A DNA stretch of 64,000 bases from Gemmatimonas groenlandica (GTDB lineage: Bacteria; Gemmatimonadota; Gemmatimonadetes; Gemmatimonadales; Gemmatimonadaceae), in the NCBI RefSeq assembly GCF_013004105.1, contig NZ_CP053085.1, positions 4,774,001 to 4,838,000 on the forward strand, given 5' to 3'. How positions within the stretch are numbered: the first letter of the stretch is position 1; every line of letters begins with the position of its first letter. Below are positions 7,385 to 55,789 of the stretch, piece by piece. The notes below the pieces were generated by a model. It was not told the DNA's origin. It did not search any database and saw only the letters and a program-made list of their open reading frames with translations. The position numbers and the translations under genes are program-made.

Positions 7385-7810
7385 ATGGCCGCTGCGAAGA
7401 AGTCTGCGAAGAAAGCTGCAAAGAAGGCCGCCCCGAAGAAGGCCGCCGCCAAGAAGGCGCCTGCGAAGAAGGCCGCCCCCAAGAAGGCCGCTGTGAAGAA
7501 GGCTGCCCCGGCCAAGAAGGCCGCCGTGAAGAAGGCGCCGGCCAAGAAGGCCGCCAAGCGCACGCCGAACGCGGCGTTCATGAAGGCCCTGACGCCGAGC
7601 CCGGAGCTTGCGGCTGTCGTCGGCGACAAGCCGCTTCCGCGCACGGAAGTCGTGAAGAAGCTCTGGGCGTACATCAAGAAGAACGGCCTCCAGGATGCCA
7701 AGAACAAGCGCAACATCAACGCCGACGACAAGCTGAAGGCCGTGTTCGCTGGCAAGAAGACCGTCAGCATGTTCGAGATGACGTCGCTGGTCTCCAAGCA
7801 CCTGTCGTAA
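7385..7810 (+). CDS. SWIB domain protein with histone-H1-like Lys/Ala tail
   Basis: The 141-aa protein has two parts. Residues 1 to about 60 are almost entirely Lys, Ala and Pro in AKKA/PAKKAA repeats, like the C-terminal tail of histone H1 and bacterial H1-like nucleoid proteins. Residues about 63-141 form a SWIB/MDM2 domain: LTPSPELAAVVGDKPLPRTEVVKKLW, then YIKKNGLQDAKNKRNINADDKLKAVF and a terminal MFEMTSLVSKHLS. The charge and composition predict DNA binding in the nucleoid; the SWIB partner is unknown. A strong AGGAG at 7374-7378 supports the ATG. The gene stands alone between a 160-bp promoter region and a terminator. Chlamydiae and some other bacteria also encode SWIB proteins. Confidence 0.92.
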   Translation: MAAAKKSAKKAAKKAAPKKAAAKKAPAKKAAPKKAAVKKAAPAKKAAVKKAPAKKAAKRTPNAAFMKALTPSPELAAVVGDKPLPRTEVVKKLWAYIKKNGLQDAKNKRNINADDKLKAVFAGKKTVSMFEMTSLVSKHLS

Positions 7811-21425: not shown

Positions 21426-21485
21426 GCCCACTGCCCATGGCCGATGGCCCATGGCCCACGGCCCATGGCCCACGGCCCAAAGCCC
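21426..21485. repeat. Heptamer tandem array, GCCCA(T/C)G x 8
   Basis: Eight consecutive 7-bp units from 21426 (GCCCACT, GCCCATG, GCCGATG, GCCCATG, GCCCACG, GCCCATG, GCCCACG, GCCCAAA) plus a final GCCC. It lies between the IS110 right end and the GroES-like gene, ending 45 bp before that ATG. Such GC-rich heptamer arrays are usually intergenic and variable in copy number. Confidence 0.85.
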
Positions 21486-22393: not shown

Positions 22394-24073
22394 GTGATCA
22401 ACCCGAACGACGGCACCGCCGACGCGTTGGCGCGTGCCGTCGCCGGACAATTCTCCATTGAACGCGAGATCGGTCGCGGCGGCATGGGTGTGGTGTATCT
22501 CGCCCGCGATGAGCAGTTGCATCGGGCAGTGGCGATCAAGACGTTGCCGCCGCATCTGTCGTACGACCCGCAGGTGCGTGCGCGTTTCCTGCGGGAGGCG
22601 CGCACCGCAGCCGCGCTGTCGCACCCCAACATCGTGCCGGTCTACACCGCCGCCGAGCGCGATGCGGTCGTGTATTTCGCCATGGGCTACGTCGAAGGCG
22701 AGTCACTGGCCGATCGGCTCGCCCGCGACGGACCGATGAAGGTGGCTGCCATTGTGCCGATCATCCGACAGCTTGCTGGCGCATTGGGGTACGCCCACGA
22801 ACAAGGCGTCGTGCACCGGGATGTGAAGGCCGAGAACATCCTGCTCGATGCGCATGGACGGGTGATGGTCACCGACTTCGGTATCGCGCGTGTGACCGAG
22901 TCGCAGCCGCTCACCGCGACCGGGACTGTGCTCGGCACGGTGCAGTACATGAGCCCTGAGCAGGTGTCGGGCGAGCCGCTCGATGGGCGCAGCGACCTGT
23001 ATGCCATCGGCGTCCTGATGTTCTTTGCGGTGAGTGGCCGCTTTCCGTTTGAACGACCGAATGCGTCGGCGGTTTTGGTGGCGCATGTGAACGCACCAGC
23101 ACCGCGGCTGCGCGATTTCGTGCCCGATGTGCCGTCGCCGTTGGACGACCTTGTGGCCACGCTGCTCGCCAAATCGCCGGATCGGCGGCTGTCCACGGCC
23201 CGCGACCTGCTCACGGCACTGGCGTTCATGTCGAGTGCGGTGATGGACGGGGCGGAGCCCAATCGGACACTCGCCCGCGCACCGGTGGTCCCGCTTGCAT
23301 TCCCGTCGCCCCTTTCGAGTGCCGACGCGCAGCAGGTCTGGGCGCGGGCGGCCGAGTTGCAAGCGAATACCGGCGCGCAGATACCGCCCGCTCGCTTCGA
23401 ACCGAGTGCGGAGAGCGAGACCCGCGGCTACACGCCCGCGATCGTGAAGGATGCGGCGGTGGATGCCGGCATCGACGCGAAGTATGTCGATCGTGCCTTC
23501 GTGGAACGGGCCGCTGCTTCGCAGTTGCCGGTTGCCGTGCAGCCCGGCGACGCGATGACGCGCCGACCGAACGTCTTTCTGGGTGCAGGCACCAAGATCG
23601 AGCTGTCGGCGTCATTCGATGGCGAGTTGCACGGCGACAGCTTCGAGGAGGTGGCCGATGAAATACGGCTCGCACTCGGCGAGATGGTGACCGTGAGCGC
23701 CGTGGGGCGAACGCTCACCGTCACGACCGGCATGCCGACCAATCGGCAGGGTGGGATGCCGCGCTTCATCCAAGTGCACATCGCCTCGCGCAACGGGCGC
23801 ACGACCGTACGGGCATTTGAAGACCTGACCCAGTTGGCGGGCGGCCTGTTCGGCGGTCTGGGGGGAGGTTTGGGCTTTGGCGGCAGCGCAATCATCGGCG
23901 GCATTGTCGCGTCGTCGCACGGAGCCCCCGCTTTGGCGTTCGCAGCCGTGGCGGCCACCGTACTGAGCGCCGTAGGCACTGCGCGTTTCTTCTTTGCGCG
24001 CACGGCCAAGCGCCGGCGGGAAGAATTGGAGCGCCTCGTTCAGCGTGTCGTCACCCGGGCACGCGAGAGCTGA
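22394..24073 (+). CDS. Ser/Thr protein kinase with C-terminal membrane hairpin
   Basis: The 559-aa protein (GTG start) has an N-terminal Hanks-type kinase domain, residues about 20-280: a glycine loop REIGRGGMGVVYLA, Lys49 in VAIKTLPP, HRDVKAENILLD with catalytic Asp143, VTDFGIARV, and YMSPEQVSG. A linker with a short helical element (YTPAIVKDAAVDAGIDAKYVDRAF) follows. A beta-rich region (LGAGTKIELSASFDGELHGDSFEEVADEI) and two glycine-rich hydrophobic segments (LFGGLGGGLGFGGSAIIGGIVA and ALAFAAVAATVLSAVGTARFFF) come next, with a basic C-terminus. The tail is unlike PASTA- or TPR-type kinases. It is 40 bp downstream of the bacilliredoxin gene, so co-transcription is possible. Substrates are unknown. 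Confidence 0.9.
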   Translation: MINPNDGTADALARAVAGQFSIEREIGRGGMGVVYLARDEQLHRAVAIKTLPPHLSYDPQVRARFLREARTAAALSHPNIVPVYTAAERDAVVYFAMGYVEGESLADRLARDGPMKVAAIVPIIRQLAGALGYAHEQGVVHRDVKAENILLDAHGRVMVTDFGIARVTESQPLTATGTVLGTVQYMSPEQVSGEPLDGRSDLYAIGVLMFFAVSGRFPFERPNASAVLVAHVNAPAPRLRDFVPDVPSPLDDLVATLLAKSPDRRLSTARDLLTALAFMSSAVMDGAEPNRTLARAPVVPLAFPSPLSSADAQQVWARAAELQANTGAQIPPARFEPSAESETRGYTPAIVKDAAVDAGIDAKYVDRAFVERAAASQLPVAVQPGDAMTRRPNVFLGAGTKIELSASFDGELHGDSFEEVADEIRLALGEMVTVSAVGRTLTVTTGMPTNRQGGMPRFIQVHIASRNGRTTVRAFEDLTQLAGGLFGGLGGGLGFGGSAIIGGIVASSHGAPALAFAAVAATVLSAVGTARFFFARTAKRRREELERLVQRVVTRARES

Positions 24074-24481
24074 TACCCCGCGCTTCCCGCGGCTTGCCGC
24101 GCGGCTGCAGCACCGGTGTAGGGCATTTGACCGTGTGGTCTCGACGCGTCGCATTCGCTGCGCTGACGCAACAGTGGTACCGTTTTGCTACGTGTCGCAG
24201 CGGTCTCGCGCCCGTCTCATGTATTCTGCAGTAATATTGTATGAATACTTCTTCATGTGTCAATTCGTTGATGAGAAACGCTTTACATGTACAGCGGTTC
24301 ACATGAAAGCAGAGTTTGCCGATTATTTGACGGTCCCGGCGCAGTTTCCAACATGGTGACAAGTGCGTCACAGATTTGGCGCGGCGATTGCTCACTGCTG
24401 TGGCTGTGCGGCGAATCGCTGCCATCAACCTCGAACGGGCACGATCTCCGATTAATGCCCATTTCCCAACCCGGAGTGGAA
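24074..24481 (+). other. 408-bp non-coding leader upstream of the Tad/Flp pilus locus
   Basis: No convincing gene is present. The left third is GC-rich with a short CCGCG/CGCGG stem just after the kinase stop. The middle (about 24215-24340) is unusually AT-rich for this window (GCAGTAATATTGTATGAATA, AAACGCTTTACATG). It is the natural place for the pilin promoter and regulator sites. A TTGACG at 24327-24332 has a weak -10 candidate (AACATG) 17 nt on. The ribosome site CCGGAG precedes the first flp gene. Confidence 0.5.
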
Positions 24482-24670
24482 ATGATGTCGACCGTCAAGA
24501 ACACGCTTCGCCGCTTTGTCCGTGAAGAAGAAGGCGCCTCGCTGGCCGAGTACGCGCTGCTGCTCGGCGTGATCACCGTGGCCCTGATCACCGTGATCAC
24601 GTCCTTCCGCAACTCGATCTCGAATATCTTCAGCAAGACGACGAACACGCTGAACTCGGCCGGCTCCTGA
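24482..24670 (+). CDS. flp: Flp-type IVb pilin (first copy)
   Basis: The 62-aa prepilin starts at ATG 24482, or 24485, where a second ATG follows; GGAG lies 5 nt upstream. A short basic leader (MMSTVKNTLRRFVREEEG) ends in Gly18. The mature protein begins ASLAEYALLLGVITVALITV, with the Flp hallmark Glu at +5 and Tyr at +6, so the prepilin peptidase at 25497 should cut after Gly18. The polar tail ends TTNTLNSAGS. It is nearly identical in its mature part to the second copy. As the first gene after a long leader, and followed by a strong hairpin, it is probably the major pilin. Confidence 0.93.
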   Translation: MMSTVKNTLRRFVREEEGASLAEYALLLGVITVALITVITSFRNSISNIFSKTTNTLNSAGS

Positions 24671-24678
24671 GCCTCGGT

Positions 24679-24711
24679 GCAGGCCGACGGGGCTTCGTCC
24701 CGCCGGCCTGC
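24679..24711 (+). terminator. Strong hairpin between flp1 and flp2
   Basis: A 13-bp stem with one mismatch pairs 24679-24691 (GCAGGCCGACGGG) with 24699-24711 (CCCGCCGGCCTGC) around the 7-nt loop GCTTCGT, starting 9 nt after the flp1 stop. There is no U-tract. It could be a partial terminator or an mRNA-stabilising end that lets flp1 be expressed above the downstream assembly genes. Confidence 0.6.
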
Positions 24712-24759
24712 CCGACGCCGAGCGAATTGCGCCTTCCCACCCTCACTCTGAATCAGACC

Positions 24760-24945
24760 ATGCGGAAGCTTACCAACGTCGCCCGCCGGTTCCTTCGCGA
24801 AGAAGAAGGCGCCTCGCTGGCCGAATACGCGCTGCTGTTGGGCGTGATCACGGTCGCGCTCATTACCGTTGTCACGCAGTTCAAGGATTCCATCTCGAAC
24901 ATCTTCACGAAGACGACGAACACGCTGAACTCCGCCGGGTCCTGA
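24760..24945 (+). CDS. flp: Flp-type IVb pilin (second copy)
   Basis: A 61-aa prepilin begins at ATG 24760; an in-frame upstream TTG is less likely. The leader MRKLTNVARRFLREEEG ends in Gly17, and the mature N-terminus ASLAEYALLLGVITVALITV has Glu+5 and Tyr+6. The tail (FKDSISNIFTKTTNTLNSAGS) differs from the first copy at only a few positions, so this is a recent tandem duplication. The third pilin starts 5 bp after the stop. Confidence 0.93.
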   Translation: MRKLTNVARRFLREEEGASLAEYALLLGVITVALITVVTQFKDSISNIFTKTTNTLNSAGS

Positions 24946-24950
24946 GTTTC

Positions 24951-25412
24951 GTGCGCCGTCGGTTGTTCCGTCGCGGGCTCCATCTGCGACGGCTTGCGAG
25001 TGAGGACGCCGCTGCATCCCTCGCCGAGTACGCGTTGCTGCTTGGCGTAGCCGCGGTAGCACTGCTGCTCGTGGTCTCGCAGTTCTCGGGATCCGTCTCG
25101 AACCTGTTCGCGCGGACGACGAACACCGTGGGGCAGGTCACTGCGGATGGCGGTACGTCGGGGAGCGACCAGGGCGGCACAGGCGTAGGCACCGGAGCAG
25201 GTACTGGTACTGGTACTGGTACTGGTACTGGTACTGGTACTGGTACTGGTACTGGCGTCGGTACGGGCACAGGCACTGGCGTCGGAACTGGCACTGGCAA
25301 CGGCGTGAACGGCAACGGCGGTGGCCAAGGCAACGGTCAGGGCAACAACGGGAACGGCAACGGCAATTCCGGCAACAACGGCGGATCCGGCAACAACGGG
25401 AAGAAGCCGTAG
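24951..25412 (+). CDS. Divergent Flp-like pilin with Gly-Thr / Gly-Asn repeat tail
   Basis: The 153-aa protein starts at GTG 24951. An arginine-rich leader precedes a pilin core (ASLAEYALLLGVAAVALLLVV) homologous to the two Flp pilins. The residue before the expected cut is Ala21 rather than Gly. The core ends with LFARTTNTVG, matching the end of normal Flp. A roughly 85-residue tail follows that normal Flp lacks: nine perfect Gly-Thr pairs encoded by a GGTACT hexamer array plus degenerate flanking copies, then Gly/Asn-rich sequence ending NNGKKP. It may be a minor or tip pilin with an exposed, flexible and length-variable tail. Confidence 0.85.
   Translation: MRRRLFRRGLHLRRLASEDAAASLAEYALLLGVAAVALLLVVSQFSGSVSNLFARTTNTVGQVTADGGTSGSDQGGTGVGTGAGTGTGTGTGTGTGTGTGTGVGTGTGTGVGTGTGNGVNGNGGGQGNGQGNNGNGNGNSGNNGGSGNNGKKP
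25200..25253 (+). repeat. GGTACT hexanucleotide microsatellite, 9 perfect units, in frame
   Basis: Nine uninterrupted copies of GGTACT occupy 25200-25253 inside the third pilin gene, each encoding Gly-Thr (residues 84-101). Degenerate GGCAC(A/C/T)/GGAACT units flank them on both sides, so the array was once longer or is expanding. Because the unit is six bases, copy-number change would lengthen or shorten the tail without shifting the frame. Confidence 0.95.
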
Positions 25413-25496
25413 CCGGTTTGTTCGTAGTGCCGTCGGGACCGAGACTCAGCGAGCGACGAACGGATCCCCGGTAATCGATAAGATAAACTTTGCTTC

Positions 25497-26042
25497 ATGA
25501 TAACGTCGACGTCAAGCGTCCTGTTGTTATCGGTCGTGTTGGGGACTTTACTGGCGGGCGCTGTCATCAGTGATCTCCGTGAGCGCCGGGTGGCCAACGT
25601 ACTCAATTTGTGCGTGTTGGCGACCGGCCTTTCCGCGTCGGTCCTGACACGAGGCGCTTCCGACGGTTTGTGGCAGTCGTTGTTGGGCGTGGGACTGGCG
25701 CTGGCAATCTGGTTCCCAATGTTCGCGTTGCGATTGATGGGAGCTGGCGATGTAAAATTGATGGCGGCGAGTGCCGCGTGGTTGGGCTGGCAGGGCACGT
25801 TGGTCGCGTCGCTCGCCACCGGCATTTTCGGTGGTCTGCTCGGAGCGTTCTGGTTGCTGCGGTCGCACGGTGCCGTGAGTGCGCTCAACACGGTGGCAAC
25901 GGCAGTTCGCGCGCCGTGGATTATGAAGCTGCGCCCATATGAAGCGCGCGATCGTGTACCATACGCCCTCGCCATCGCCGCCGGTGTCGCCACGGCCTGG
26001 TGGATCACTTTTGGTTCTGCATTCCGGACTGCTCACTCATGA
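25497..26042 (+). CDS. cpaA: Prepilin peptidase CpaA/TadV
   Basis: A 181-aa A24-family aspartic membrane protease that cleaves Flp and TadE-type prepilins. It lacks the N-terminal methylase domain of PilD, as TadV enzymes do. The two catalytic aspartates are Asp26 in VISDLRERRVAN and Asp85 in the family motif GAGDVKLMAA. About five transmembrane helices are visible. ATG 25497 follows an 84-bp gap after the third pilin. The stop overlaps the tadE ATG (ATGA). Confidence 0.93.
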   Translation: MITSTSSVLLLSVVLGTLLAGAVISDLRERRVANVLNLCVLATGLSASVLTRGASDGLWQSLLGVGLALAIWFPMFALRLMGAGDVKLMAASAAWLGWQGTLVASLATGIFGGLLGAFWLLRSHGAVSALNTVATAVRAPWIMKLRPYEARDRVPYALAIAAGVATAWWITFGSAFRTAHS

Positions 26043-26488
26043 AGCGTTCTTTACGTCGATTTGTTCGTGAGCACGACGCGGGACCGATCGTGGAGTTTGC
26101 GGTCGTTGTGCCGGTGCTGTTGCTGTTGCTCTTCGGCATCGTCGATTTCGCCCGTGCCTTTTTTCAGCGCAACAACTTGGTAGCGGCGGTTCGTGAAGGT
26201 GCGCGCTACGGGGCGGTGCTCGAGTTCCCGTGCACCGCCGCAAGCGAGACCGCGATCAAGTCGCGAGTGACGAGCTATTTCTCGTCCGTTGGGGATGCTG
26301 CGCCGGCCACCAACACCATCATCGTCACGCCAAGCTCGGCGGCGTGTACGGCGGCTCCGCCAAGTATCACCGTGAAAATCCAGAACTATCCATTTACGCC
26401 GGTCACACCTCTCTTCAAACTGCTCGGTGGAAACCGGAGTATCCAATTGCAGGCTAGCGCCGTCTATCGGTGGGAACGTGCTCCGTGA
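26039..26488 (+). CDS. tadE: TadE-like pseudopilin
   Basis: A start at ATG 26039, overlapping the cpaA stop, gives 149 aa. The basic leader (MKRSLRRFVREHDA) is followed by GPIVEFAVVVPVLLLLLFGIVDFAR, one hydrophobic helix with the TadE-type Glu-Phe. If Glu19 is at +5, the cut follows Ala14 rather than Gly, the same change seen in the third pilin. The remainder is a periplasmic domain with two cysteines (FPCTAAS and SAACTAAP) that could form a disulfide. TadE is a minor pseudopilin needed for Flp assembly. Confidence 0.85.
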   Translation: MKRSLRRFVREHDAGPIVEFAVVVPVLLLLLFGIVDFARAFFQRNNLVAAVREGARYGAVLEFPCTAASETAIKSRVTSYFSSVGDAAPATNTIIVTPSSAACTAAPPSITVKIQNYPFTPVTPLFKLLGGNRSIQLQASAVYRWERAP

Positions 26489-26538: not shown

Positions 26539-27507
26539 ATGTTTGGTGACCGTCGTTATCGCTTCGTGCTCTATGTCGCCCTGCTCGTTGCCGGTTTGGC
26601 AACGCTCGGGGTGTATCGCGTCATTGACGGCATGCGCGCCAGCAGCCGCGTGGCCACACAAAACGTCGTGATTGCCTCGGCCGACGTGCCCGAAGGCACC
26701 GCGCTCACCGCCGCGACCTTGGCCGTGGTGCAGTTGCCGGTGGCTGCGGTGCCGGCCGGTTCCTACACGTCGCCCGACTCTGTTGTCGGACGCGTCTCGC
26801 GCATCCCCATCTTCAAGGGTGAAGCGATCGTGCCAGGGCGTCTCGCCCCCGACGGCACTGCTGGCGGCATCGAAGTGAAGATTCTCCCCGGCAAGCGCGC
26901 GATGTCGGTGCGCATCGACGACGTCGCCGGCATCTCGGGCATGGTGCAGCCGAACTCGCGCGTCGACGTCATGCTCACCACGCGTGACGCCACGGCGCAG
27001 GGCGCGCAGGTGTCGAAGCTGTTCATGAGCAATATGCGCATCCTCTCGATCGGCTCGAATATCGCGCGAGGCGAAGACGGCAGACCGATCAACGCGCCCA
27101 CGGCGACGCTGGAAGTCACGCCGGCCGAGGCCGAGCGCCTCGCGTTGGCCGTGCGCGAAGGTGCCATTCAGCTCGTGCTTCGCGGCTATGGCGATCCCGA
27201 CTCCGTGCAGACCACCGGCGCTAAGCGTGGCGATCTCCTCACGCAGGTCGACAACGGGCCGCCGCCAGCGCCCGCTCCGGCGCCGGCACGGGTGTCGCGC
27301 GCGCCGGCACGTCCGGCCCCGACGCCTGTGCCGGTGGCGAACGTGCCTATTCCGGAAAAGACCGACTCGGTGGTCGTGCGCATTTACCGTGGCGACCAGC
27401 TGTCGTCGCTCAAGTTCGAACAGGCGCGCGACAGCGTGCGTCGCGATTCACTCCGTCGCGCCGAACAGCGCCGACGCGACTCCATGCCCCCGTCGCCCCT
27501 TCGCTGA
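26539..27507 (+). CDS. cpaB: Flp pilus assembly protein CpaB/RcpC
   Basis: A 322-aa protein with one N-terminal transmembrane helix (FVLYVALLVAGLATLGVYRVI). A SAF domain follows (NVVIASADVPEGTALTAATLAVVQLPVAAVPAGSYTSPDSVVGRV), then the CpaB core (GKRAMSVRIDDVAGISGMVQPNSRVDVMLTT). CpaB is periplasmic and works with the CpaC secretin. The C-terminal ~75 residues are proline/alanine-rich and then strongly charged (RDSVRRDSLRRAEQRRRDS), perhaps a peptidoglycan- or partner-contact region. It sits 50 bp after tadE in the Tad operon. Confidence 0.9.
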   Translation: MFGDRRYRFVLYVALLVAGLATLGVYRVIDGMRASSRVATQNVVIASADVPEGTALTAATLAVVQLPVAAVPAGSYTSPDSVVGRVSRIPIFKGEAIVPGRLAPDGTAGGIEVKILPGKRAMSVRIDDVAGISGMVQPNSRVDVMLTTRDATAQGAQVSKLFMSNMRILSIGSNIARGEDGRPINAPTATLEVTPAEAERLALAVREGAIQLVLRGYGDPDSVQTTGAKRGDLLTQVDNGPPPAPAPAPARVSRAPARPAPTPVPVANVPIPEKTDSVVVRIYRGDQLSSLKFEQARDSVRRDSLRRAEQRRRDSMPPSPLR

Positions 27508-27564
27508 GTGATACGCGACGCCCACGTTGCGATGTCATTTCGATTTCGATTTTCTGGAGACTTC

Positions 27565-28716
27565 ATGCGTGCTTTGAATTCAGCGGTGACCGTGGCGGCG
27601 CTCGTACTCGGCTCAGTCGCCTCACCGATCAGTGTCACGGCGTTGGCGGCACAGGCAGCCACGTCGGTGACGCCCATCGAAACGATCACGATGTCGGTCG
27701 GTCGGTCCATGCCGCTCGACCTCACCGCGGCGGTCACGCAAGTCACGCTGGCCAACCCGGCCATTGCCGATGTTGTCGTGCTCAATGAGCGCAGCGTCGT
27801 GCTCAACGCCAAAGCGATCGGTGAAACCGACGTGCTGCTGTCGGGTCCGGTCCTCGGCCGTCGTCATCTGCGGGTGTCGGTGTTCCAGGCTACCGACTCC
27901 CGCCAGATCGCGCTTGGCGTGAAGTTCGCCGAAGTGCGTCGGGATGCACTGTACGAAATCGGTATCTCCGCTCGCTACGATGCGAAGAGTGGTAACACGA
28001 TCGGTGGTACGGGCGTGCTCGCCCCGAACGTGACGGGCGATGGCATTGCCGGTTCGTCGTCCACTCGCTTCGTGGGTGCGCTGTTGAACTTCGGGACCAC
28101 GGATATCACGGCCTTTCTCGACGCGCAGCAGCAGGCTGGACGCGCGCGCTCGTTGGCCGAGCCCACGCTGATCGCCGGGAATCGTGAAGAAGCCAGCTTT
28201 TTGGCCGGCGGCGAGTTGCCGGTGCCGATCGCGCAGCCGGGACAGGGCGGGCAGACGTTTATTACCATCCAGTACCGTCCGTATGGCGTACAACTCAAGT
28301 TTCGCGCCGAAGTCATGTCGGATTCGCTGGTGAAGCTGAAGGTCACGCCGGAAGTCTCGAGCCTGGACTTTGGCAACGCCGTGCTGCTTTCCGGCTTCCG
28401 CATTCCCGCCATTCGCGTGCGGCGCGTTGAGACCACGCTCGACGTGCGTCCAGGGGAAAGCCTCGTGATTTCCGGGCTCTTCAACGAAGAGCGGGAGTCG
28501 GTGCGTACTGGCATTCCGGGGCTCATGAATCTCCCTATTCTTGGTGCGCTCTTTTCCAGCAATCGCTGGCAGAACGCCGAATCGGAATTGCTCGTGGTGG
28601 TCACGCCGACGCTCATCAATCCGAATGCCTCGCGCGGCAGTCGCACCATCAAGCTGACGCCCGACAGTCTCACCCCGGCTCTCGAAGCGCTCAAGAAGCG
28701 TCTCCCGCCGCAGTGA
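27565..28716 (+). CDS. cpaC: Tad secretin CpaC/RcpA
   Basis: ATG 27565 gives 383 aa and has a good ribosome site (CTGGAG) upstream; ORF-initiating codons at 27508 and 27532 lack one. A signal peptide (ALNSAVTVAALVLGSVASPISVTALAAQA) precedes a BON/pilus-secretin N-domain (ITMSVGRSMPLDLTAAVTQVTLANPAIADVVVLNERSVVLNAKAIGETDVLL). The secretin core follows, with SLAEPTLIAGNREEASFLAGGELPVPIAQ, and VRRVETTLDVRPGESLVISGLF near the end. It forms the outer-membrane channel for the Flp pilus. Like other Tad secretins it is shorter than type II secretion secretins. Confidence 0.92.
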   Translation: MRALNSAVTVAALVLGSVASPISVTALAAQAATSVTPIETITMSVGRSMPLDLTAAVTQVTLANPAIADVVVLNERSVVLNAKAIGETDVLLSGPVLGRRHLRVSVFQATDSRQIALGVKFAEVRRDALYEIGISARYDAKSGNTIGGTGVLAPNVTGDGIAGSSSTRFVGALLNFGTTDITAFLDAQQQAGRARSLAEPTLIAGNREEASFLAGGELPVPIAQPGQGGQTFITIQYRPYGVQLKFRAEVMSDSLVKLKVTPEVSSLDFGNAVLLSGFRIPAIRVRRVETTLDVRPGESLVISGLFNEERESVRTGIPGLMNLPILGALFSSNRWQNAESELLVVVTPTLINPNASRGSRTIKLTPDSLTPALEALKKRLPPQ

Positions 28717-28759: not shown

Positions 28760-29956
28760 ATGCGTCGTGCGGTCATCGTTCGTGATGCGCTGGGCCCCCT
28801 GACACCACTGGTCCCCGTTTTCACGGGGGCCGGTTTTGGCAGGCCCATTGAAGTCGATAGTGTTGAAGCACTGGTTGCTACGGCGCCGGAAGTCGGCGCC
28901 GATCTGATCATTTTGCCGCTGCTTTCGGCCAACTTCGCGCTCGACGATGTCGAAACGATGTTGCGTGAACGGCCGGCCTTGGCGGCGATCGGCACGGCGC
29001 CGACGGCCAACAGTGATCTCATCCTCGGCGGTTTTCGTCGAGGTCTGTCGGAGTTCCTGGTGGCGCCCGCCGACGCGGGGGAGCTCGCCGCGGCACTGGC
29101 TCGACTCGAGTCGCGCTGGGAACGTGCACCAAAGGGCGGACACGTCACCGCGGTGTACAGTCCTGCCGGCGGGGCCGGTGTGACCACTGTAGCGGTGAAC
29201 CTGGCCCATGCGCTCGCGCTCCGAAAGCCGGCCGGACGCGTGGCCGTGGCCGACCTTGTCGTTGGCCTCGGCGACGTCGCCACCCAGCTCAATCTCGCGC
29301 CAGCCTACGATCTCGGCGAACTGGTGCGCAAGCTCGATCGCGCCGACCACGAGTCATTGCAGTCGATCGTGGAGAGCGTGGCCGACGGCATGGATGTGCT
29401 GGCGGGAACCAGCGATCTTGAACTGGGCGAGGAAGTGACGCCGGAAGCGGTGCAGCGCATCATGACGCTGATGCGCTCCACGTACACGTACACCGTCATG
29501 GACGTCGAGCACTCGGTTTCACCGCGTACGATCGCCGCACTCGACGGCGCCGATCGGATCGTGATGGTGTTTCAGGTGACGGTGGCGGGGCTGCGCAAAG
29601 TGAAGCGCGCCCTCACGCTGTTCGGTCAGCTCGACTTTCCGGCGGAAAAGGTGCTGCTGGTGGCCAATCGTGTGGGCGCCGGCGACGTCATGCCATGGCC
29701 CGATGTGGCCAAGGCACTGGGTCGTTCAGTCGACTTCCGCTTGCCCAACGCCTATCAGGTCGTGGCCGACGCGCAGACTCGAGGAGTTCCGATCACGGCC
29801 AATTCTGCCGGCCCTGGCGCACAAGCGCTGATCGAAGCGTATCACCTGCTCGCCGTGAGATTGATGGGTCAGAAGGGACTCGTGTCTGGCAGCAGCGAAG
29901 TCTTGCCGGCTGCCCGCGCCGGATTCGGGCGACTACTCGGCAAACTGAGGAAGTGA
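28760..29956 (+). CDS. cpaE: TadZ/CpaE-type MinD-like localisation protein
   Basis: The 398-aa protein has an N-terminal receiver-like region (residues about 1-120, [24 protein letters not shown]) and a MinD/ParA-like ATPase domain. In the Walker-A position it reads [19 protein letters not shown], lacking both the signature and the P-loop lysines; atypical P-loops are common in Tad[17 protein letters not shown] and [15 protein letters not shown] represent the switch regions. TadZ places the pilus machine at a pole or focus and recruits the CpaF ATPase. The stop overlaps the cpaF GTG. Confidence 0.88.
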
Positions 29957-31458
29957 CCGTGGAACGCTCACTACGCGACCGACTTCTGGGCAAACGGCCA
30001 ACTCCGTCTGGGGCGTCCGCCGATGGCACCAACGGCAACGGCAACGGTAACGGCGTCGTACCGACGGAAGGCGTCGTCGATCCGTTGCAGGGACTGCCGC
30101 AGCCGGAAGAGAAGAAGGAAGTGGACAACGGCGTGCTGACACCCGTTGACCTGCTCAAGCGCGACTTGCACCAGAAACTGATCGATCGTCTCGATCTGGC
30201 TGCACTCGAAAAAATTCGCGACGAGTCTGCGCTCACGCAGCAGATTCGCGCTGCAGTACTCGAGTTCCTCCGCATCGAGCAGGCGCCGTTGTCGGCCGCC
30301 GAGCGCGATGAAGTGGTCGAGCAGATCGTGTGGGAAGTGACGGGTCTCGGCCCCATCGAGCCGCTCACGCGCGATCCGTCGGTGTCCGACATTCTGGTGA
30401 ACGGCCCGAAATCGGTGTACGTGGAGCGGCGTGGTCGGTTGGAACGAACCAACATCACCTTCCGCGACAACGCCCATCTGCTCACGATCATCGATCGCAT
30501 CGTGAGCAAGGTTGGTCGACGTGTCGACGAGTCGTCGCCGATGGTCGACGCCCGTCTTGCCGACGGCTCGCGTGTGAACGCCATCATCCCGCCGTTGGCG
30601 ATCGATGGTCCCGTGCTTTCGATTCGTCGCTTCGGTGCCTCGCTCGGACCGCGTCGACTGGTGGAGCTGGGCGCGCTGTCGGCGCCGATGCTGCGATTGC
30701 TCGCTGCGTGCGTGGTCGCCCGCCTGAACGTTCTGGTATCAGGTGGTACCGGCTCCGGCAAGACGACTGTACTGAACGCGTTGTCCAGCTTCATTCCGGG
30801 CACAGAACGCCTCGTCACCATCGAAGACGCGGCCGAGCTTCGACTGCAGCAGGCACACGTGGTGCGGCTTGAGACACGCCCACCGAATACGGAAGGACGC
30901 GGTGAGGTCAGTGCGCGCGACCTCGTCAAGAACGCCCTGCGTATGCGTCCTGATCGCATCATCATTGGCGAAGTCCGGTCCGGCGAAGCGCTCGATATGC
31001 TGCAGGCCATGAACACCGGCCACGAAGGTTCGCTTACCACCGTGCACGCGAACACACCGCGCGACGCGCTCGCGCGTCTCGAAACGATGGTGCTGTTCGC
31101 CGGCACGGCGCTGCCCACGCGTGCCATCCGCGAGCAGATGGCGTCGGCGCTTCACGTGATCGTGCAGGTCTCGCGTATGTCCGACGGCACGCGTCGCATC
31201 ACGAGCATCACGGAGGTGACCTCGATGGAAAGCGACGTGATCACGACCCAGGAGATCTTCCGCTACCGCCGACGCGGCGTTGCCGACGACGGTACGGTGC
31301 TCGGCAACTTCGAAGCGACCGGCGTGCGTCCCTTGTTCATGGAAGCGATTCTCGCCCGCGGTATTGACCTTCCGGCCGAGACGTTCGCGTTCGGTGCCGT
31401 GAGTCACGCTGGACCGGGCGCGGTCGGGCTACTCGGCGAGGGCGGACTCCCGGCATGA
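29953..31458 (+). CDS. cpaF: Flp pilus assembly ATPase CpaF/TadA
   Basis: The start is GTG 29953, overlapping the cpaE stop, or GTG 29959; the product is about 500 aa. The first ~60 residues are low-complexity, including NGNGNGNG. The GspE-like ATPase follows: an N-terminal all-alpha domain ([29 protein letters not shown]), Walker [11 protein letters not shown] with Lys270, an Asp box ([11 protein letters not shown]), Walker B ([42 protein letters not shown]) with the His box. It powers pilus assembly at the inner membrane. The C-terminal tail (residues about 440-501) is typical of CpaF. Confidence 0.94.
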
Positions 31459-32417
31459 CCGCGCTCGTTCTCACTCTGGTGTTCCTCGGAGCCATGCTCC
31501 TTGTGGTCGGCGGCTTCGTGTTCGCCAATCGCCGGCGACTCTCGGCGGCGGATGCGGCGCGCGTGCGCGTGGGTGAGGTTGGCGGCATCCTGCGCAGCGA
31601 TATGCCGATCTCCATCCTCCGCGACGAGCGCGTTTCCGATTTCAAGACGCTCAACGAGCTGCTCTCCGGTCGCAACATCACGGTCAAGCTGGAGAAGGAG
31701 CTCGCGCACGCCGGATCGCGGCAGAAGCCCGGTGAGTTCGTGTTGTTCACGTTGTTGTCGGCCATGATAGGCCTCACGCTCGTTCAGTTCCTGATCGGTG
31801 GCGTGGTCAATTTCGTCGGCGCGTTCTTTTTTGCGTTTATCCCGTGGTTACTGTTGCGTCGTCGCCAGAAAAAGCGGATGCGACAGTTCGAGGTGGCCTT
31901 TCCCGACGCGCTCGACCTCATGACGAATGCGCTGCGAGCCGGATATTCCCTGCAGGCGGCCATGGAGTTCGTGGGGCGTGAGTCTCCTGCACCTTTGCGT
32001 GGCGAATTTCTTCGCTTCTACGATGAGCAGCGTCTGGGTGTGGATGTACGCACCGCGCTGCTGGCCATGCAGGAGCGCATCGGTACCGAAGAGGCCCGCC
32101 TGTTCGTGACGTCGCTCATTTTGCAGCGCGAAACGGGCGGTAACCTGGTCGAGCTGCTCTCGAATATTTCGAGCATCATTCGCGAGCGTCTCAAGTTTCA
32201 GGCGAATCTGGCCACGCTTACCGCCGAGCCCAAGATGTCGGCCCGGGTGCTGGCGGCCATGCCCTTCGTAATGTTCGGTATCATCTACACGATCAATCGC
32301 GAGTACATGCAGCCGCTGTTTACCGACGTACTCGGTAAGGGGCTGATCGTGTACGCGTTCGTTTCCGTGGTCATCGGCTATCTCATCATGGAACGCATCG
32401 CCAGCGTGGACATGTAA
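31455..32417 (+). CDS. tadB: Tad pilus inner-membrane platform protein TadB
   Basis: The 320-aa protein starts at ATG 31455, overlapping the cpaF stop (ATGA). It has an N-terminal transmembrane helix ([20 protein letters not shown]), a central pair of hydrophobic segments, and the T2SSF/GspF-like cytoplasmic domain ([26 protein letters not shown] and [35 protein letters not shown]). Two C-terminal helices follow. TadB pairs with TadC to form the platform rotated or pushed by CpaF. Confidence 0.92.
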
Positions 32418-33346
32418 TGGGTGATCTTCCACTATCCCTGCTTTTCTTGGTCGGCACCGTCATCCTGGCGGTGTGTACCATCGTGTACGTTGCGATCTCG
32501 GAGCGTGAGCGCCGCGAGACCATGCAGCGCGTGTCGCCCGAGTCGGATCCGAGCCGCATGGCCGAGCGCCTGCTGCTGAATGAAGACGCCAAAGCCTCAT
32601 CGCGTTTGGCGGCCTGGCTACGTGAGAGAATGCCCGAGGGTTTGATCTCGGATGATGCGAGCTCGACCAAATTGGTGCATGCGGGCTTCGACGGTTCCGC
32701 CGCGCCGGTCATATTCTCGGCCATTCGCATCGCCGCCGCGCTGCTTCTGCCGGTGCTCGCCTTTGTGGCCGCGCCACGTGACGAGCCGATGTGGCTTACG
32801 GTGTCGATCGTCATGGGTGTGGTGGCAGGCATCGCCGGTCCACAGGCGGTCGTCGATCGGCTCGCACAGAATCGACAGGACCGGATCCGTCGCGCAGTAC
32901 CCGACGCGCTCGACCTGCTCGTGGTCTGTGTGGAAGCGGGCGTGTCGCTTGACGCGGCAATCATTCGCGTGGCTCGCGATTTGGCCAATGTGCGCCCCGA
33001 ACTCGCACTGGAGTTTGCGCAGGTCGTGCGTCGCGTAAATGCCGGCATGCCGCGCGATCGCGCGTTACAAACGTTGGCCCAGCGCACCGGCGTCGATGAA
33101 CTGCGGACGCTCGTGTCGAGCATGGTGCAGACCGAGCGGTTGGGTACGTCCATCGCCCGCGTGTTGCGGGTCAACTCCGATTCCCTGCGCGTCCGTCGAC
33201 GGCAGAAGGCCGAGAAAAAGGCGGCCGAGGCCGCTCTGAAGATGATCTTTCCGCTGGCGTTGTTTCTGTTGCCGGCGCTGCTGGCGGTGATCGTCGGTCC
33301 GGCAGCTCTGACCGTCGTGAGCCAGCTCGGTAATTTGAGTAAGTAG
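32417..33346 (+). CDS. tadC: Tad pilus inner-membrane platform protein TadC
   Basis: The 309-aa protein starts at ATG 32417, overlapping the tadB stop (TAATG). An N-terminal helix (LSLLFLVGTVILAVCTIVYVAI), a second membrane region (AIRIAAALLLPVLAFVAAP), and a GspF domain (VPDALDLLVVCVEAGVSLDAAIIRVARDL and VSSMVQTERLGTSIARVLRVNSDSLRVRRRQKAEKKAAEA) are followed by a C-terminal helix (IFPLALFLLPALLAVIVGPAAL). Order, size and motif match TadC partners of TadB. Confidence 0.92.
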   Translation: MGDLPLSLLFLVGTVILAVCTIVYVAISERERRETMQRVSPESDPSRMAERLLLNEDAKASSRLAAWLRERMPEGLISDDASSTKLVHAGFDGSAAPVIFSAIRIAAALLLPVLAFVAAPRDEPMWLTVSIVMGVVAGIAGPQAVVDRLAQNRQDRIRRAVPDALDLLVVCVEAGVSLDAAIIRVARDLANVRPELALEFAQVVRRVNAGMPRDRALQTLAQRTGVDELRTLVSSMVQTERLGTSIARVLRVNSDSLRVRRRQKAEKKAAEAALKMIFPLALFLLPALLAVIVGPAALTVVSQLGNLSK

Positions 33347-33400
33347 GCCGGCTCGATTGAGTCGGGTAGTACGTTGTCACTTTCCGCGGGGAGGCGGACT

Positions 33401-34639
<1,239 letters not shown>

Positions 34640-38442: not shown

Positions 38443-39995
38443 AACATCAAACTAATACGGGTTCGGAGTTTGCCGAGCTCAGCTTTAAACCGGCTTTTGG
38501 CTGGGACATCGGCCTGTGCCTGCTGGTGGCAGTGTGCGCGGCACTTTTAATGCCGCTCGACGACGCCGACCTGCCCATGCACTTGGCGACAGGCGCCTGG
38601 ATCCTCGATCACGGACGGCTGCCGCTCACCGAGCCCTTTGCCTGGACGCGCATGGGCGCGCCGTTCTTCGCCTACTCGTGGCTGCCCGAAGTCGCCTATG
38701 AGGGCGCGCGCCGGGTGATGGGGCTGGTCGGAGTCTCGGTGGTGCATGCGGTGACCGTGGCGGGCGCGGTGGTGGCCGTGTGGGACCTGGCGCGGGCGGC
38801 GCGCTGGTCGCTGTGGGCCACGCGGTTGATGCTGTCAGTGCACGTCATCCTATGGCTATTGGTGCAGCCGGCCACTCGGCCGCAGCTGGTGCTGGCGATC
38901 GCGCTGCCGATGGCGTGGGCGGCGGCGTACCGGCTGCGGAGTGCGACGTCGCCGGTAGCGGGACTGGTCATGACGCTGCTGGCGGCGGCGTTGGCGGTGA
39001 ACTCGCACTTGCTGTTTCCGCTTACGATCGTGCCGGTGGTGGTGCTGTTGGGAGCGGAGCGGTTTCGGTTGAGTCGCGTGGCGGCGTTTGTCGCGAGCAC
39101 GGTGGTGGGATGGCTCTGTACGCCGAACGCGCTGCATCTCTTGGACATCCTGCGGCTCAATCTCGGTGCCAACGCGCTCTTGGGCGCCGCGTCGCCGATC
39201 ATGGAGCTCGAGCCGGGGTTCGGCTTTCTGATCAAGGCCGCGGTGGGCACGAAGCTCGTGGCGGGCGGACTACTCGTGTTGCCGCTGTTGCCCTTCTACG
39301 CGCGATTGCCACAGCGCGAGCGGTGGTGGCTGGGGATGGCATGGCTGGCCGGGCTCGGGCTATTCGGATTGGCGATACGGGGGCTGTTGCTCTGGTGGCT
39401 ACTCGCGATGCCGGTGGTGGCGTTGGCGTTGGCGAGTATCCCGCTGCCCACGCTCGTATCCACGCGGCGCGCGGTGGTGGGCGCGTGGGTGGTGGCGGTG
39501 TTCGCACCGATCGGGCATGCGTTGAAGGCGCGTGAGCTGCTGGGCCCTGTGGATGGGTTGCCGCATCCCGAGGCCAAGGCGCTGGCGCCGGCGGTGCGCT
39601 GGTTAACATGTGCTACGGCGGGTGCTGATTCCGCGGGGGGCGTGGCACGCGGGACTACCGTGTTCGACGACGGCAGCTATCTGGCGTGGAGGGTGCCGTC
39701 GGTGTCGTGGTCGGTGGACGGGCGAACGATTTTTCCTGACTCGGTAACGCGCGCCGAGGCGGGCCAGCAACTTCGGTACGGTGCGGTCGTCTATCCCCCG
39801 TGGCGACATGGCGATGTGGTGCTGCTGCCTGCAACGCATGCCGTGGCGGCCGTGATCGACGCAGACAGTTCGTGGCAGCGCATTGCCATCACGCCAGGCG
39901 CTGATGCTGCAGCCGCAGTGGGAGTCTGGGCGAGACGGAAATGGATGAATGACCGACCGAACGGCGCTGCATGCGTCAGCGATGGCCGCAAGTGA
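38430..39995 (+). CDS. Multi-pass membrane protein, GT-C-like
   Basis: The 521-aa protein from ATG 38430 has about ten transmembrane helices. After the first helix it reads MPLDDADLPMHLATGAWILDHGRLPLTEPFAWTRMG: an Asp-Asp pair and His in the first periplasmic loop, the layout of GT-C glycosyltransferases using lipid-linked sugars. The 11709 protein shares the spacing of this block and looks paralogous. The C-terminal ~120 residues are soluble (GTTVFDDGSYLAWRVPSVSWSVDGR). The first 13 bases overlap the divergent ABC ATPase start; the polar first ~28 residues make a later start possible. Followed directly by a GT2 gene. Confidence 0.62.
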   Translation: MKKSQHQTNTGSEFAELSFKPAFGWDIGLCLLVAVCAALLMPLDDADLPMHLATGAWILDHGRLPLTEPFAWTRMGAPFFAYSWLPEVAYEGARRVMGLVGVSVVHAVTVAGAVVAVWDLARAARWSLWATRLMLSVHVILWLLVQPATRPQLVLAIALPMAWAAAYRLRSATSPVAGLVMTLLAAALAVNSHLLFPLTIVPVVVLLGAERFRLSRVAAFVASTVVGWLCTPNALHLLDILRLNLGANALLGAASPIMELEPGFGFLIKAAVGTKLVAGGLLVLPLLPFYARLPQRERWWLGMAWLAGLGLFGLAIRGLLLWWLLAMPVVALALASIPLPTLVSTRRAVVGAWVVAVFAPIGHALKARELLGPVDGLPHPEAKALAPAVRWLTCATAGADSAGGVARGTTVFDDGSYLAWRVPSVSWSVDGRTIFPDSVTRAEAGQQLRYGAVVYPPWRHGDVVLLPATHAVAAVIDADSSWQRIAITPGADAAAAVGVWARRKWMNDRPNGAACVSDGRK

Positions 39996-40023
39996 CCGAC
40001 ATTCGACCTCGGAGCGAGGGCAG

Positions 40024-40980
40024 ATGGTTTCTTCCCCAGTAGCGCGCAGCTCAGCACCTCTGGTCGCTGTGGTTATTCCATGTCACAACGAGGCGAAGAG
40101 TATCGGGACTGTCGTCGCCGATTTTCGGCGTGAACTGCCTGATGCGCTGATCGTTGTCGTTGACAACTCGTCCCACGACGGAACGGCGTCGATCGCCGCT
40201 GCCGCCGGTGCGCGCGTCGTCCGCGAAACGCGACTCGGCAAGGGCCACGCGCTTATTCGCGGATTCAACGAGGCTAGAGCTGCTGACAGCGTGGTCATGG
40301 TGGATGGCGACGGTACCTACAGCGCACGGCATGTGGGGGCCATGCTCCAGGCCAGAGCCGACGGTGCCGACATGGTGATCGGAACGCGCTTGGAGGAGTC
40401 TGAGAATGGAGCGTTCCCGCGTGCGCACGGCTTCGGCAATCGATTGTTTATCGCGATCGTACGTCTGTTGTTCGGCCTGCGTACGAACGATCTGTTTTCT
40501 GGCTATCGAGTGCTATCGAGGCAACTGCTGGACGCGCTGCCGCTGATCGCGCACGGCTTCGAGATCGAGTCGGAGCTCTCACTCCAGTCGCTCGTGAACG
40601 GCTTTCGGATTGTCGAGATCCCGACTCCGTATGGAGCGCGGCAGGCAGGTACCGTCAGCAAGCTGCGAACGTTTCATGACGGCTATCGAATCCTGCTGAC
40701 GTTGCTGGCATTCTTCCGAGACTATCGACCGCTGACGTTCTTCGGGATCGTGAGTCTCTCATTCTTAGCGCTTGGGCTTGTGGCCGGTTCCTTTCCGGTC
40801 ATCGAATATTTTGAGACAGGCCTTGTTCAGCGACTGCCACTTGCGGTTCTCGCCGTAGGTCTCGTGTTGCTGTCGGCCGTCAGCGCTATCGGTGGGCTGG
40901 TACTATCATCGGTTCGCCGCCGGTCCGACGAATTAGCAGTGATCGTGTCTCGCATGAAGTACTTACAGCGAGAGTCTTGA
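40024..40980 (+). CDS. GT2 family glycosyltransferase, DPM/GtrB-like, with C-terminal membrane helices
   Basis: ATG 40024 is chosen because GAGGG lies 6 nt upstream; ATG 39982 and an earlier start would overlap the previous gene. The 318-aa product has a GT-A domain: VAVVIPCHNEAKSIGTVVADF, VVVDNSSHDGT, GKGHALIRGFNEA, and the DxD-type VMVDGDGTYSARHV. Further motifs are GTRLEESENGAFPRAHGFGNRLF and FSGYRVLSRQLLDALP. Two transmembrane helices follow (ITFFGIVSLSFLALGLVAG region and LAVLAVGLVLLSAVSAIGGLVL). Such enzymes move a sugar to polyprenyl phosphate, the donor type used by GT-C proteins. It converges with the flavoprotein gene, 7 bp apart. Confidence 0.9.
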   Translation: MVSSPVARSSAPLVAVVIPCHNEAKSIGTVVADFRRELPDALIVVVDNSSHDGTASIAAAAGARVVRETRLGKGHALIRGFNEARAADSVVMVDGDGTYSARHVGAMLQARADGADMVIGTRLEESENGAFPRAHGFGNRLFIAIVRLLFGLRTNDLFSGYRVLSRQLLDALPLIAHGFEIESELSLQSLVNGFRIVEIPTPYGARQAGTVSKLRTFHDGYRILLTLLAFFRDYRPLTFFGIVSLSFLALGLVAGSFPVIEYFETGLVQRLPLAVLAVGLVLLSAVSAIGGLVLSSVRRRSDELAVIVSRMKYLQRES

Positions 40981-46285: not shown

Positions 46286-46438
46286 TTTCTTCAGGTTCAG
46301 TGCCGCGATGGTGCCGCGCGTATTCATGAATCGATCGAGTCCGTCGGTGCTCAGGCTCGCGCTGCGTACATGCCGGTGCCTTCGTATTGGCATATGCGAC
46401 TACACGTCAAATCAGAAGCACCGTGAGCGGTGTCGCTA

Positions 46439-47608
46439 ATGACCTCGCGTCGACTTCGGATTGTGCATATCGCGTCCTATCTGCCTTCGCATTTAGGAGG
46501 ATTGGAGATAGCCGCGTGGTCGATAGCGCGAGGCGTAGCGCGCAGGGGCTATCAGATTGACTATTTCGCGAGTGGGGACGCCGTTGACTGCGAGCCACTC
46601 GAAGGCTTCGCCGTATACGAGATCAGCTCCGTTGATCCTTTTGATCGACCCCTAGGGCTTCCGGTACCACTCTGGTCCCTCGGTTCGATGTCTCAGCTAG
46701 TTCGTGCTGTTCGACGTGCGGACGTTGTGCATATACACGATACGCTGTACATGGGGAGCGTTTTAGGGGCGGTGTTATCTGTTCTGCTTCGTTGCCCGCT
46801 CGTTCTCACGGTGCACACATCGAAACTCCAGTTCAGGCATCGCGTACTTAGGCTGGCGTTCTTCGTTGCCAATGCCTCTGTAACTCGCTTCATTCTTTCG
46901 CGGGCAACACGAGTTGCGTTTGTTGGAACAACAGCCGAGGAATTCCACTCCACAGCCAACAGCGTAGCGGCAAAGAGTGCGATGATCCCGAATGGGGTCG
47001 ATGCAGCCATATTTTCTCCCTTTGAATTTGGGGATCGTAGGTTCCTGCGTCGGTCGATGGGCATCGAATCCCGTGACTTTGTCGTCGCATTCGTCGGGAG
47101 ATTCGTGGAGAAAAAGGGCATACACCTTTTACAGCAGGCCGTCGAAAGTGTCCGTGGTGTGCGATGGGTCTTTATTGGTGACGGCACCATTCATCCAGAG
47201 GGATGGCGTGTCGCGCACGATTCCACTCTTCAGCTGACGGGGCAGGTTGGACAAGCTTCGTTAGCCGATTTGTATCGCAGCGCCGACGTCGTGCTGTCAA
47301 TTGGCGTCGGCGAAGGTGGTACTCCGCTCGTTGTGAAGGAGTCCATGGCATGCGGGACGCCAGTGTTGGTGAGTATGGAGGTGAGTCGTTCACTCGGTGA
47401 TCCACGACCACCGGGTGTTTGGACGGTCGACGCAAGCGCTCCGGATGCGTCTTTGCTCGTTGCCCACATGGTTGAGCGGCTCAAGTCCGGGAGAGAGGAA
47501 GTTGCGTCTGTTCGAGAAGCCACTGCGGCGTTCGCTCGGCGGTGGGATTGGGACTTCGCCGCACGAGAGTACGACGCGATGTATCGCAGTTTGCGCTCGC
47601 GCCGCTGA
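46439..47608 (+). CDS. GT4 family glycosyltransferase (GT-B fold)
   Basis: ATG 46439 (an in-frame GTG lies at 46430) gives 389 aa. The N-terminal glycosyltransferase domain begins LRIVHIASYLPSHLGGLEIAAWSIARGVARRG, with VVHIHDTLYMGSVLGAVLSVLL and LVLTVHTSK. The C-terminal GT1/GT4 domain shows IPNGVDAAIFSPFEF, VVAFVGRFVEKKGIHLLQQAVE and the EX7E-type nucleotide-sugar motif GEGGTPLVVKESMACGTPVLVS. It is a soluble or peripheral cytosolic enzyme using an NDP-sugar; the acceptor is unknown. It is the last gene of the low-GC glycan segment. Confidence 0.92.
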   Translation: MTSRRLRIVHIASYLPSHLGGLEIAAWSIARGVARRGYQIDYFASGDAVDCEPLEGFAVYEISSVDPFDRPLGLPVPLWSLGSMSQLVRAVRRADVVHIHDTLYMGSVLGAVLSVLLRCPLVLTVHTSKLQFRHRVLRLAFFVANASVTRFILSRATRVAFVGTTAEEFHSTANSVAAKSAMIPNGVDAAIFSPFEFGDRRFLRRSMGIESRDFVVAFVGRFVEKKGIHLLQQAVESVRGVRWVFIGDGTIHPEGWRVAHDSTLQLTGQVGQASLADLYRSADVVLSIGVGEGGTPLVVKESMACGTPVLVSMEVSRSLGDPRPPGVWTVDASAPDASLLVAHMVERLKSGREEVASVREATAAFARRWDWDFAAREYDAMYRSLRSRR

Positions 47609-55403: not shown

Positions 55404-55751
55404 ATGTGGATGAATTTTATCAGCGCGGTCTTGCTGCAGTTCGTGGCGCAGCGCTTCCTCGGCGTGTGGGGCGCAGCAGTGGCGGGCGCAATCACGGGCG
55501 TGATGTTTCGGCAAGGCGGTGCCATTCGTGCCGGTGCCCTCTCGGCCGCCCTGGCCGCCGCCGTGCTGCTGATCGCGGCGGCCGAACGCGGCGCTGCACT
55601 CACCGACTTTGCGGCGACGATCGGGCGCAATTTCTCACTGCCCGGATGGGCCGTGCTGGTGGCCACGCTGGCGTTACCTGCGCTGCAGGCCGGAGGATTC
55701 GCCGGCTTGCTTAGTCGTATCCTGCGCAAGGAGCGCGTCGCGATTCGCTAG
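55404..55751 (+). CDS. Small membrane protein, unknown function
   Basis: ATG 55404 gives 115 aa; the frame is open upstream through the acylase gene and was trimmed to the first suitable ATG after its stop. At least three hydrophobic segments are visible (FISAVLLQFVAQRFLGVWGAAVAGAITGVM, AGALSAALAAAVLLIAAAE, PGWAVLVATLALPALQAGGFAGLL). No family is recognised. It may be co-transcribed with the acylase gene 14 bp upstream. The stop codon lies inside a 13-bp tandem repeat. Confidence 0.6.
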   Translation: MWMNFISAVLLQFVAQRFLGVWGAAVAGAITGVMFRQGGAIRAGALSAALAAAVLLIAAAERGAALTDFAATIGRNFSLPGWAVLVATLALPALQAGGFAGLLSRILRKERVAIR

Positions 55752-55776: not shown

Positions 55777-55789
55777 GCGCGGCTCGCGA

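Follow-up and report, generated by a model that had tools for sequence, protein, structure and literature searches.

A Flp-type pilin with an in-frame GGTACT repeat tail in the Tad locus of Gemmatimonas groenlandica

A Tad (tight adherence) locus of Gemmatimonas groenlandica begins with three flp genes in tandem. The third of them, flp3, encodes a Flp-type pilin with a long low-complexity tail, part of which is specified by nine perfect GGTACT hexamers. With moderate confidence, we interpret the product as a Tad pilin with a disordered surface tail, which would act as an adhesive or spacing brush and be renewed by slippage. The analysis concerns a stretch of 64,000 nucleotides (hereafter the window; contig NZ_CP053085.1, positions 4,774,001 to 4,838,000), and coordinates are positions in the window unless another locus is named (Table 1). 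Relatives are referred to by genome number, G000 being the genome of the window itself.

Table 1. Features of the tad locus, of the flp3 tail and of the distal glycosyltransferase genes in the window.
Feature	Coordinates	Strand	Basis
flp1, ordinary Flp pilin, 61 aa	24485..24670	+	Pfam PF04964, 32.4 bits (cutoff 32.2)
flp2, ordinary Flp pilin, 61 aa	24760..24945	+	Pfam PF04964, 38.3 bits
flp3, Flp-type pilin with long low-complexity tail, 153 aa	24951..25412	+	ORF, homology, AF2
Degenerate GX hexamers 5' of the GGTACT array, n=4	25176..25199	+	codon read-out
GGTACT x9, (Gly-Thr)9	25200..25253	+	repeat and codon read-out
Degenerate GX hexamers 3' of the array, n=8 (Gly-Val, Gly-Thr, Gly-Asn)	25254..25301	+	codon read-out
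End of flp3 tail, Gly/Asn-rich, terminal GNNGKKP	25296..25409	+	aligned with Gly/Asn-rich stretches of G004 and G029
Prepilin peptidase (TadV/CpaA type)	25497..26042	+	Pfam PF01478, E 2.9e-17
TadE-like minor pilin	26039..26488	+	Pfam PF07811, E 2e-16
RcpC/CpaB	26539..27507	+	Pfam PF16976, E 6e-28
Secretin RcpA/CpaC	27508..28716	+	Pfam PF00263, E 1e-37
TadZ/CpaE-like ATPase	28760..29956	+	Pfam AAA_31, E 1.2e-6; TadZ_N, 0.0024, below cutoff
TadA/CpaF motor ATPase	29953..31458	+	Pfam PF00437, E 2e-63, on ORF 29695-31458; start chosen by eye
Two ORFs in TadB/TadC position	31455..33346 (31455-32417, 32417-33346)	+	position
TadG-like protein with G/N-rich insert	33374..34639	+	Pfam PF13400, E 2e-8; TRF array
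Glycosyltransferase genes	39949-40980, 46430-47608		Pfam

The flp3 gene and its hexamer array

The flp3 gene starts with a GTG codon 5 nt past the stop codon of flp2, and a prepilin peptidase gene comes next. Further downstream, the two ORFs between the motor ATPase and the TadG-like gene are, by position, what we take to be TadB and TadC. A scan of positions 24050-25550 gave four promoter-like sites, all 5' of flp1 and three of them on the minus strand, and one weak terminator-like site within the prepilin peptidase gene; neither result is evidence of function.

The first 65 residues of Flp3 resemble Flp pilins, and a search with Flp3 as query retrieved Flp1 and Flp2 of its own genome at E ~1e-12, and those of five genomes at E-values from 9e-13 to 7e-9. 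The processing site of Flp pilins has been defined as G/XXXXEY and their size given as 50-80 aa (PMC4322843). Flp3 is encoded in a tad locus, as expected of a Flp pilin, and its predicted processing site (A/ASLAEY) keeps the Glu and Tyr residues needed for assembly, but it has Ala at position -1, and its 153 residues place it outside the size range. Its score against Pfam Flp_Fap (PF04964), 16.0 bits, stays under the gathering cutoff of 32.2. Among the relatives, G004 has A/ASVAEY, and G029, G023 and G001 have Gly at this position. We discarded Ala at -1 as a mark specific to Flp3, since 17 of 89 Flp-like proteins carry it, among them Flp3 of the window and Flp3 of G004. Past mature residue 45, the protein consists of 47% Gly, 20% Thr and 15% Asn. 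An AF2 model built on five sequences, weak overall (mean pLDDT 51.5), predicts a helix for residues 4-65 and an unstructured region for residues 65-152 (pLDDT <50). Flp3 is probably a derived Flp paralogue.

A first-pass annotation of the window had described an in-frame microsatellite in a pilin tail, and both the ORF and the homology to flp1 and flp2 place the array in the C-terminal tail of the pilin-like Flp3. Its account of nine perfect GGTACT hexamers flanked by degenerate copies, encoding (Gly-Thr)n, proved exact to the base, with the periodicity extending two bases further, to position 25255. The array is in frame with the flp3 ORF and, the unit being 6 bp, can change in length without loss of frame, as was also claimed.

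The GGTACT array is above chance. In a 464-kb sample of the 5.18-Mb genome, made up of the window and 20 stretches of 20 kb, four perfect hexamer runs of at least three copies were found, and at four copies or more only the GGTACT array remained. Simulated 64-kb sequences (n=20) with the first-order base transitions of the window yielded 11 runs in the 2.5-copy bin and none higher. When the whole genome was searched for (GGTACT)3 with at most two mismatches, all seven overlapping matches fell within the array. Given a (GT)9 protein, the probability of using the identical codon pair nine times is ~7e-15 under the codon frequencies of ten genes in the window, in which GGT accounts for 25.7% of Gly codons and ACT for 10.5% of Thr codons. 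This purity of the copies at the DNA level points to a recent expansion at the DNA level. In that its short, perfect tandem repeat clearly exceeds chance expectation, flp3 resembles a slippage-driven variable surface gene.

Other perfect tandem runs of at least three copies numbered five in the 464 kb sampled (periods 6, 9, 12, 15 and 18), two of them within the tad locus. The CpaF-like ATPase gene contains CAACGG x3 at 30030-30047, giving an Asn-Gly run at the N-terminus, and the TadG-like gene has a Gly/Asn-rich tandem insert of its own (34403-34471, a 9-mer in 3.7 copies). Elsewhere in the window, repeats of 15/30 bp resembling AAGAAGGCCGCC occupy 7416-7567, with one reading frame rich in Lys and Ala, and tandem arrays of 13 and 16 bp at 55740-55781, 56755-56794 and 56892-56956 are intergenic or overlap the edge of an ORF. 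A 7-bp array (GCCCATG, 21426-21479) lies directly 3' of an ORF whose end, as we take it, resembles an IS110-type transposase. Repeats of 7 bp are a subject of PMC4692102.

Tailed pilins within and beyond the genus

The same-genus set comprised 30 genomes, many of them incomplete, with one genome per species, and was searched for Flp pilins at a threshold of E <=1e-3. Matches were found in 15 of the 30; since the other 15 genomes gave none (many being incomplete), the Tad system looks dispensable. A tandem flp1-flp2-flp3 trio is present in five genomes (G000, G001, G004, G023 and G029), and G010 has three Flp matches that are not in tandem. The third gene of the trio carries a long low-complexity tail and is followed by a prepilin peptidase gene in all five, and the flp1 and flp2 products of these loci end 0-2 residues past the helix profile.

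The five flp3 tails lie in open frames and contain 35-52% Gly, with different repeats: (GT)n and a GN-rich end in the window, (GGA AAC)15(GGC AAC)17 in G004, PPGLGGGG-like units in G001 and G023, and a Gly-rich tail with K/D repeats at its end in G029. As read from these assemblies, repeat type and number differ among related genomes, that is, between species. The antigenic variation put forward in the first-pass annotation found no support in anything examined, each species being represented by one genome.

G001 and G023 are the most alike pair for these proteins. Their flp3 tails have gained or lost in-frame pieces, seen as three gap runs (3, 3 and 27 nt), and no gap occurs in the 180 nt encoding leader and helix. 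For the mature helix, dN/dS is ~0.055 in flp3 (three nonsynonymous changes), and flp1 and flp2 gave 0.054 and 0.15, all based on few changes; including the leader raises the flp3 value to ~0.2. In this one measured pair, the flp3 helix is under purifying selection, and flp3 therefore looks like a working gene. For the tail, dN/dS is ~0.17, with an uncertain alignment and a near-saturated dS (~1.1), and tail composition seems to be kept between the two genomes.

A single-clade origin of flp3 was not recovered from the unresolved tree of 19 short sequences; of 200 bootstrap trees, 15% had a branch with all flp3 sequences to one side. The flp3 label is nevertheless clustered, requiring two changes on the tree, and 5 of 500 label shuffles gave a number this low. 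Three of the five flp3 tips are long (0.83-2.34).

Hexamer arrays also occur elsewhere in the genus, namely GTCGGG x14 in locus L012 of G006 (1636-1745) and CTCCAA x5 in locus L010 of G012 (1611-1664). A motif scan of these two loci found no Flp motif, so pilin genes are not the only sites of such arrays. Both loci are among the many weak, tail-only matches of the flp3 search, which look like low-complexity cross-matches; the others were set aside.

Family searches returned Flp matches in 41 of 179 genomes (A1) and in 46 of 179 (A4). The Flp-like set held 153 candidates, or 149 distinct proteins after removal of four that ran off the end of a stretch, and by mature length 135 of these have at most 67 aa, 2 have 68-92 aa and 12 have at least 93 aa. 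Ten of the 12 long proteins, from nine genomes in three genera, have a low-complexity tail. The two others (L153 in G427, L183 in G036) are long but were rejected as tailed pilins, L153 having a non-repetitive, Pro/Asp-containing extension. All of these counts are minima: the loci of only part of the listed matches were read, and the first profile missed the divergent tailed pilins of G157, which a wider profile found.

Besides the five trio genomes (g1), tailed pilins were found in g45 (GTTA units in G155; in G157 a T/N/G/D tail and, separately, NGNS units) and in g48 (GGNP in G180, GGSSS in G181). A shorter Flp-like protein of G181 (80 aa when mature) also carries an NG tail. Pure hexamer arrays were found in only two of the ten tails (G000 and G004). 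Tails of G157, G180 and G181 contain 12- or 15-bp units in about three to four copies, and the five remaining tails showed no array by the same threshold. The tailed pilin is the last of the row in all three g45 loci examined, and a pattern scan over 7 kb found no Flp neighbour of the G180 tailed pilin.

More tentatively, we propose that the Gemmatimonadaceae possess a class of 'tailed' Tad pilins, in which one pilin of the set would carry, on a conserved helix, a disordered brush of exchangeable repeats ((GT)n, (GN)n, PPGLGGGG, GTTA, NGNS, GGNP or GGSSS). The tailed pilin closes the row in each of the eight tandem loci examined, and its brush may have been rebuilt repeatedly by slippage, with repeat type and length tuning surface chemistry in a frame-neutral way. 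Among the matches listed from the open-licence literature, no title dealt with repeat-tailed Flp pilins or with Gemmatimonas Tad pili, and precedent may well exist.

Function and origin of the tail

According to the interpretation that we favor, Flp3 would be a paralogue of the Tad subunit that retained the pilin helix and gained a disordered, Gly-rich C-terminal tail of ~85 residues. It may be exported and built into the pilus as a minor or co-assembled pilin. In the Caulobacter Tad pilus, the mature pilin is described as a single helix whose C-terminus faces outward (PMC11067988), so the Flp3 tail would sit outside the filament, projecting along the shaft or, if Flp3 is a minor pilin, near the tip. 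In a model of the Myxococcus Kil pilus, the major pilin KilP has its C-terminal part unfolded over the surface (PMC12075869), and filaments are reported to form still when Flp carries a C-terminal Strep tag (PMC4322843). The tail could be a flexible, hydrophilic brush, sticky or spacing, that serves attachment and aggregation.

The short in-frame repeats would lengthen, shorten and be replaced through slippage during replication and through unequal exchange. Across species, the tail would stay low in complexity and keep its small residues (Gly, Asn, Thr, Ser, Pro), with repeat unit and length free to vary. Turnover of the array is probably due to ordinary slippage, which may be ongoing within the strain, and the differences between species (the pure hexamer arrays of G004, the gap runs between G001 and G023) fit this mechanism. 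We count against our interpretation the Pfam score below cutoff, the Ala at -1, the weak AF2 model, the higher flp3 dN/dS once the leader is counted, the long tips and the lack of a single flp3 clade, the scarcity of pure arrays among the tails and the apparent dispensability of the system in the genus.

Neutral drift, in which low-complexity DNA grows by slippage in the unconstrained C-terminus of a spare pilin and has no function, appears unlikely to us but is a serious alternative. The tails are wholly different between most species, the codons of the array are pure, as after a recent expansion, three flp3 tips are long, and other hexamer arrays in the genus lie outside tad genes. Drift does not readily account for the Gly-rich, open-frame tails of all five trio genomes next to flp1 and flp2 products that stop at the end of the helix, nor for the low tail dN/dS between G001 and G023, with its uncertain alignment and near-saturated dS. 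The recurrence of tails in two other genera, and their position on the last pilin of the row in three g45 loci, also argue against it.

Flp3 might instead be an adapter pilin connecting the shaft to a TadE/TadG tip, similar to KilK or KilO of Myxococcus, with the tail used for tip docking. The extra Flp paralogues of Myxococcus are described as weakly transcribed adapters (PMC12075869), and flp3 lies beside the prepilin peptidase and TadE genes. However, KilO has 59 aa and is described as fully alpha-helical (PMC12075869), and a docking surface should be conserved, which the flp3 tail is not. We consider an adapter role improbable.

We regard as more doubtful still that the Thr-Gly array is a glycosylation stalk, although the first-pass annotation had suggested glycosylation of the Thr residues and pointed to nearby glycan genes. 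Two glycosyltransferase genes are indeed present in the window, but 14.5-21 kb away and past the tad genes. They came from a Pfam scan (E up to 1e-5) of 20 of the 47 listed window ORFs; as several of the scanned ORFs had no Pfam match, the window may hold more glycan genes. Thr accounts for 18 of 92 tail residues in the window but only 4 of 104 in G004, 3 of 60 in G029, 7 of 65 in G023 and 5 of 72 in G001, and this loss in the same-genus relatives weakens the case for Thr glycosylation. In its favor, tails of G155 and G157 contain 22-27% Thr and one G181 tail 24% Ser. Glycosyltransferases of staphylococcal dipeptide-repeat surface proteins are named in PMC3794999, and RcpC is implicated in Flp glycosylation (PMC12307814).

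That the copy number is an assembly artefact, to which pure arrays are prone (the 192-bp array of G004, on a contig from a MAG with a coverage of 5.8, may be inexact), is scarcely credible for the window, where the array measures just 54 bp, has degenerate copies on both sides and lies in a genome assembled as a single 5.18-Mb contig.

Other type IV pilins have a globular head domain, which Tad pilins are described as lacking (PMC11067988). If our reading of Flp3 as a tailed surface pilin is correct, a dedicated pilin whose disordered tail can be exchanged would provide a second route, besides tip proteins, to customise Tad pili, and slippage could allow a cheap, reversible and frame-neutral tuning of them. 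The differences between species suggest that the tail of a pilus part is rebuilt quickly in evolution, and about ten different tails on a similar helix offer a natural series for testing disordered brushes on filaments.

Comparison with known systems

Flp3 is closest to the Flp/Tad (type IVc) pilins (PF04964, Caulobacter PilA). It shares with them the pilin helix with its conserved Glu-Tyr, a tandem arrangement with true Flp genes and a tad locus that includes prepilin peptidase, TadE, RcpC, secretin and TadA. It differs from them in the ~85-residue low-complexity tail and the resulting length (153 vs 50-80 aa), in the Ala at -1 and in scoring below the Pfam cutoff.

Like flp3, the simple-sequence contingency loci of Haemophilus and Neisseria have a slippage-prone repeat in a gene for a surface structure. 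In contrast to these loci, the in-frame hexamer of flp3 would tune length only: as the unit is 6 bp and in frame, changes in copy number do not produce on/off switching by frameshift.

The ClfA/Sdr proteins of Staphylococcus are wall-anchored adhesins of Gram-positive bacteria with a globular ligand domain. They resemble Flp3 in having in-frame dipeptide repeats in a surface protein whose length changes are frame-neutral, and in the arrangement of the SD repeats, with perfect copies in the center and imperfect ones on both sides (PMC3324548). These repeats are reported to be experimentally unstable, in a reversible and frame-neutral manner (PMC3324548). The repeats of Flp3 are Gly-X rather than Ser-Asp, and its Gly-Thr units are attached to a pilin helix and not to a staphylococcal-type wall protein; instability is experimental in Staphylococcus, whereas flp3 is known from sequence alone.

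In Bdellovibrio, a truncated Flp2, without a tail, has been described (PMC5430801). The Kil (Tad) system of Myxococcus, with KilK, KilO and KilP, likewise has several Flp paralogues with specialised roles (PMC12075869). It differs from the locus described here in that its variable domains are reported in the TadE/F/G-like tip pilins and not in Flp repeat tails (PMC12075869).
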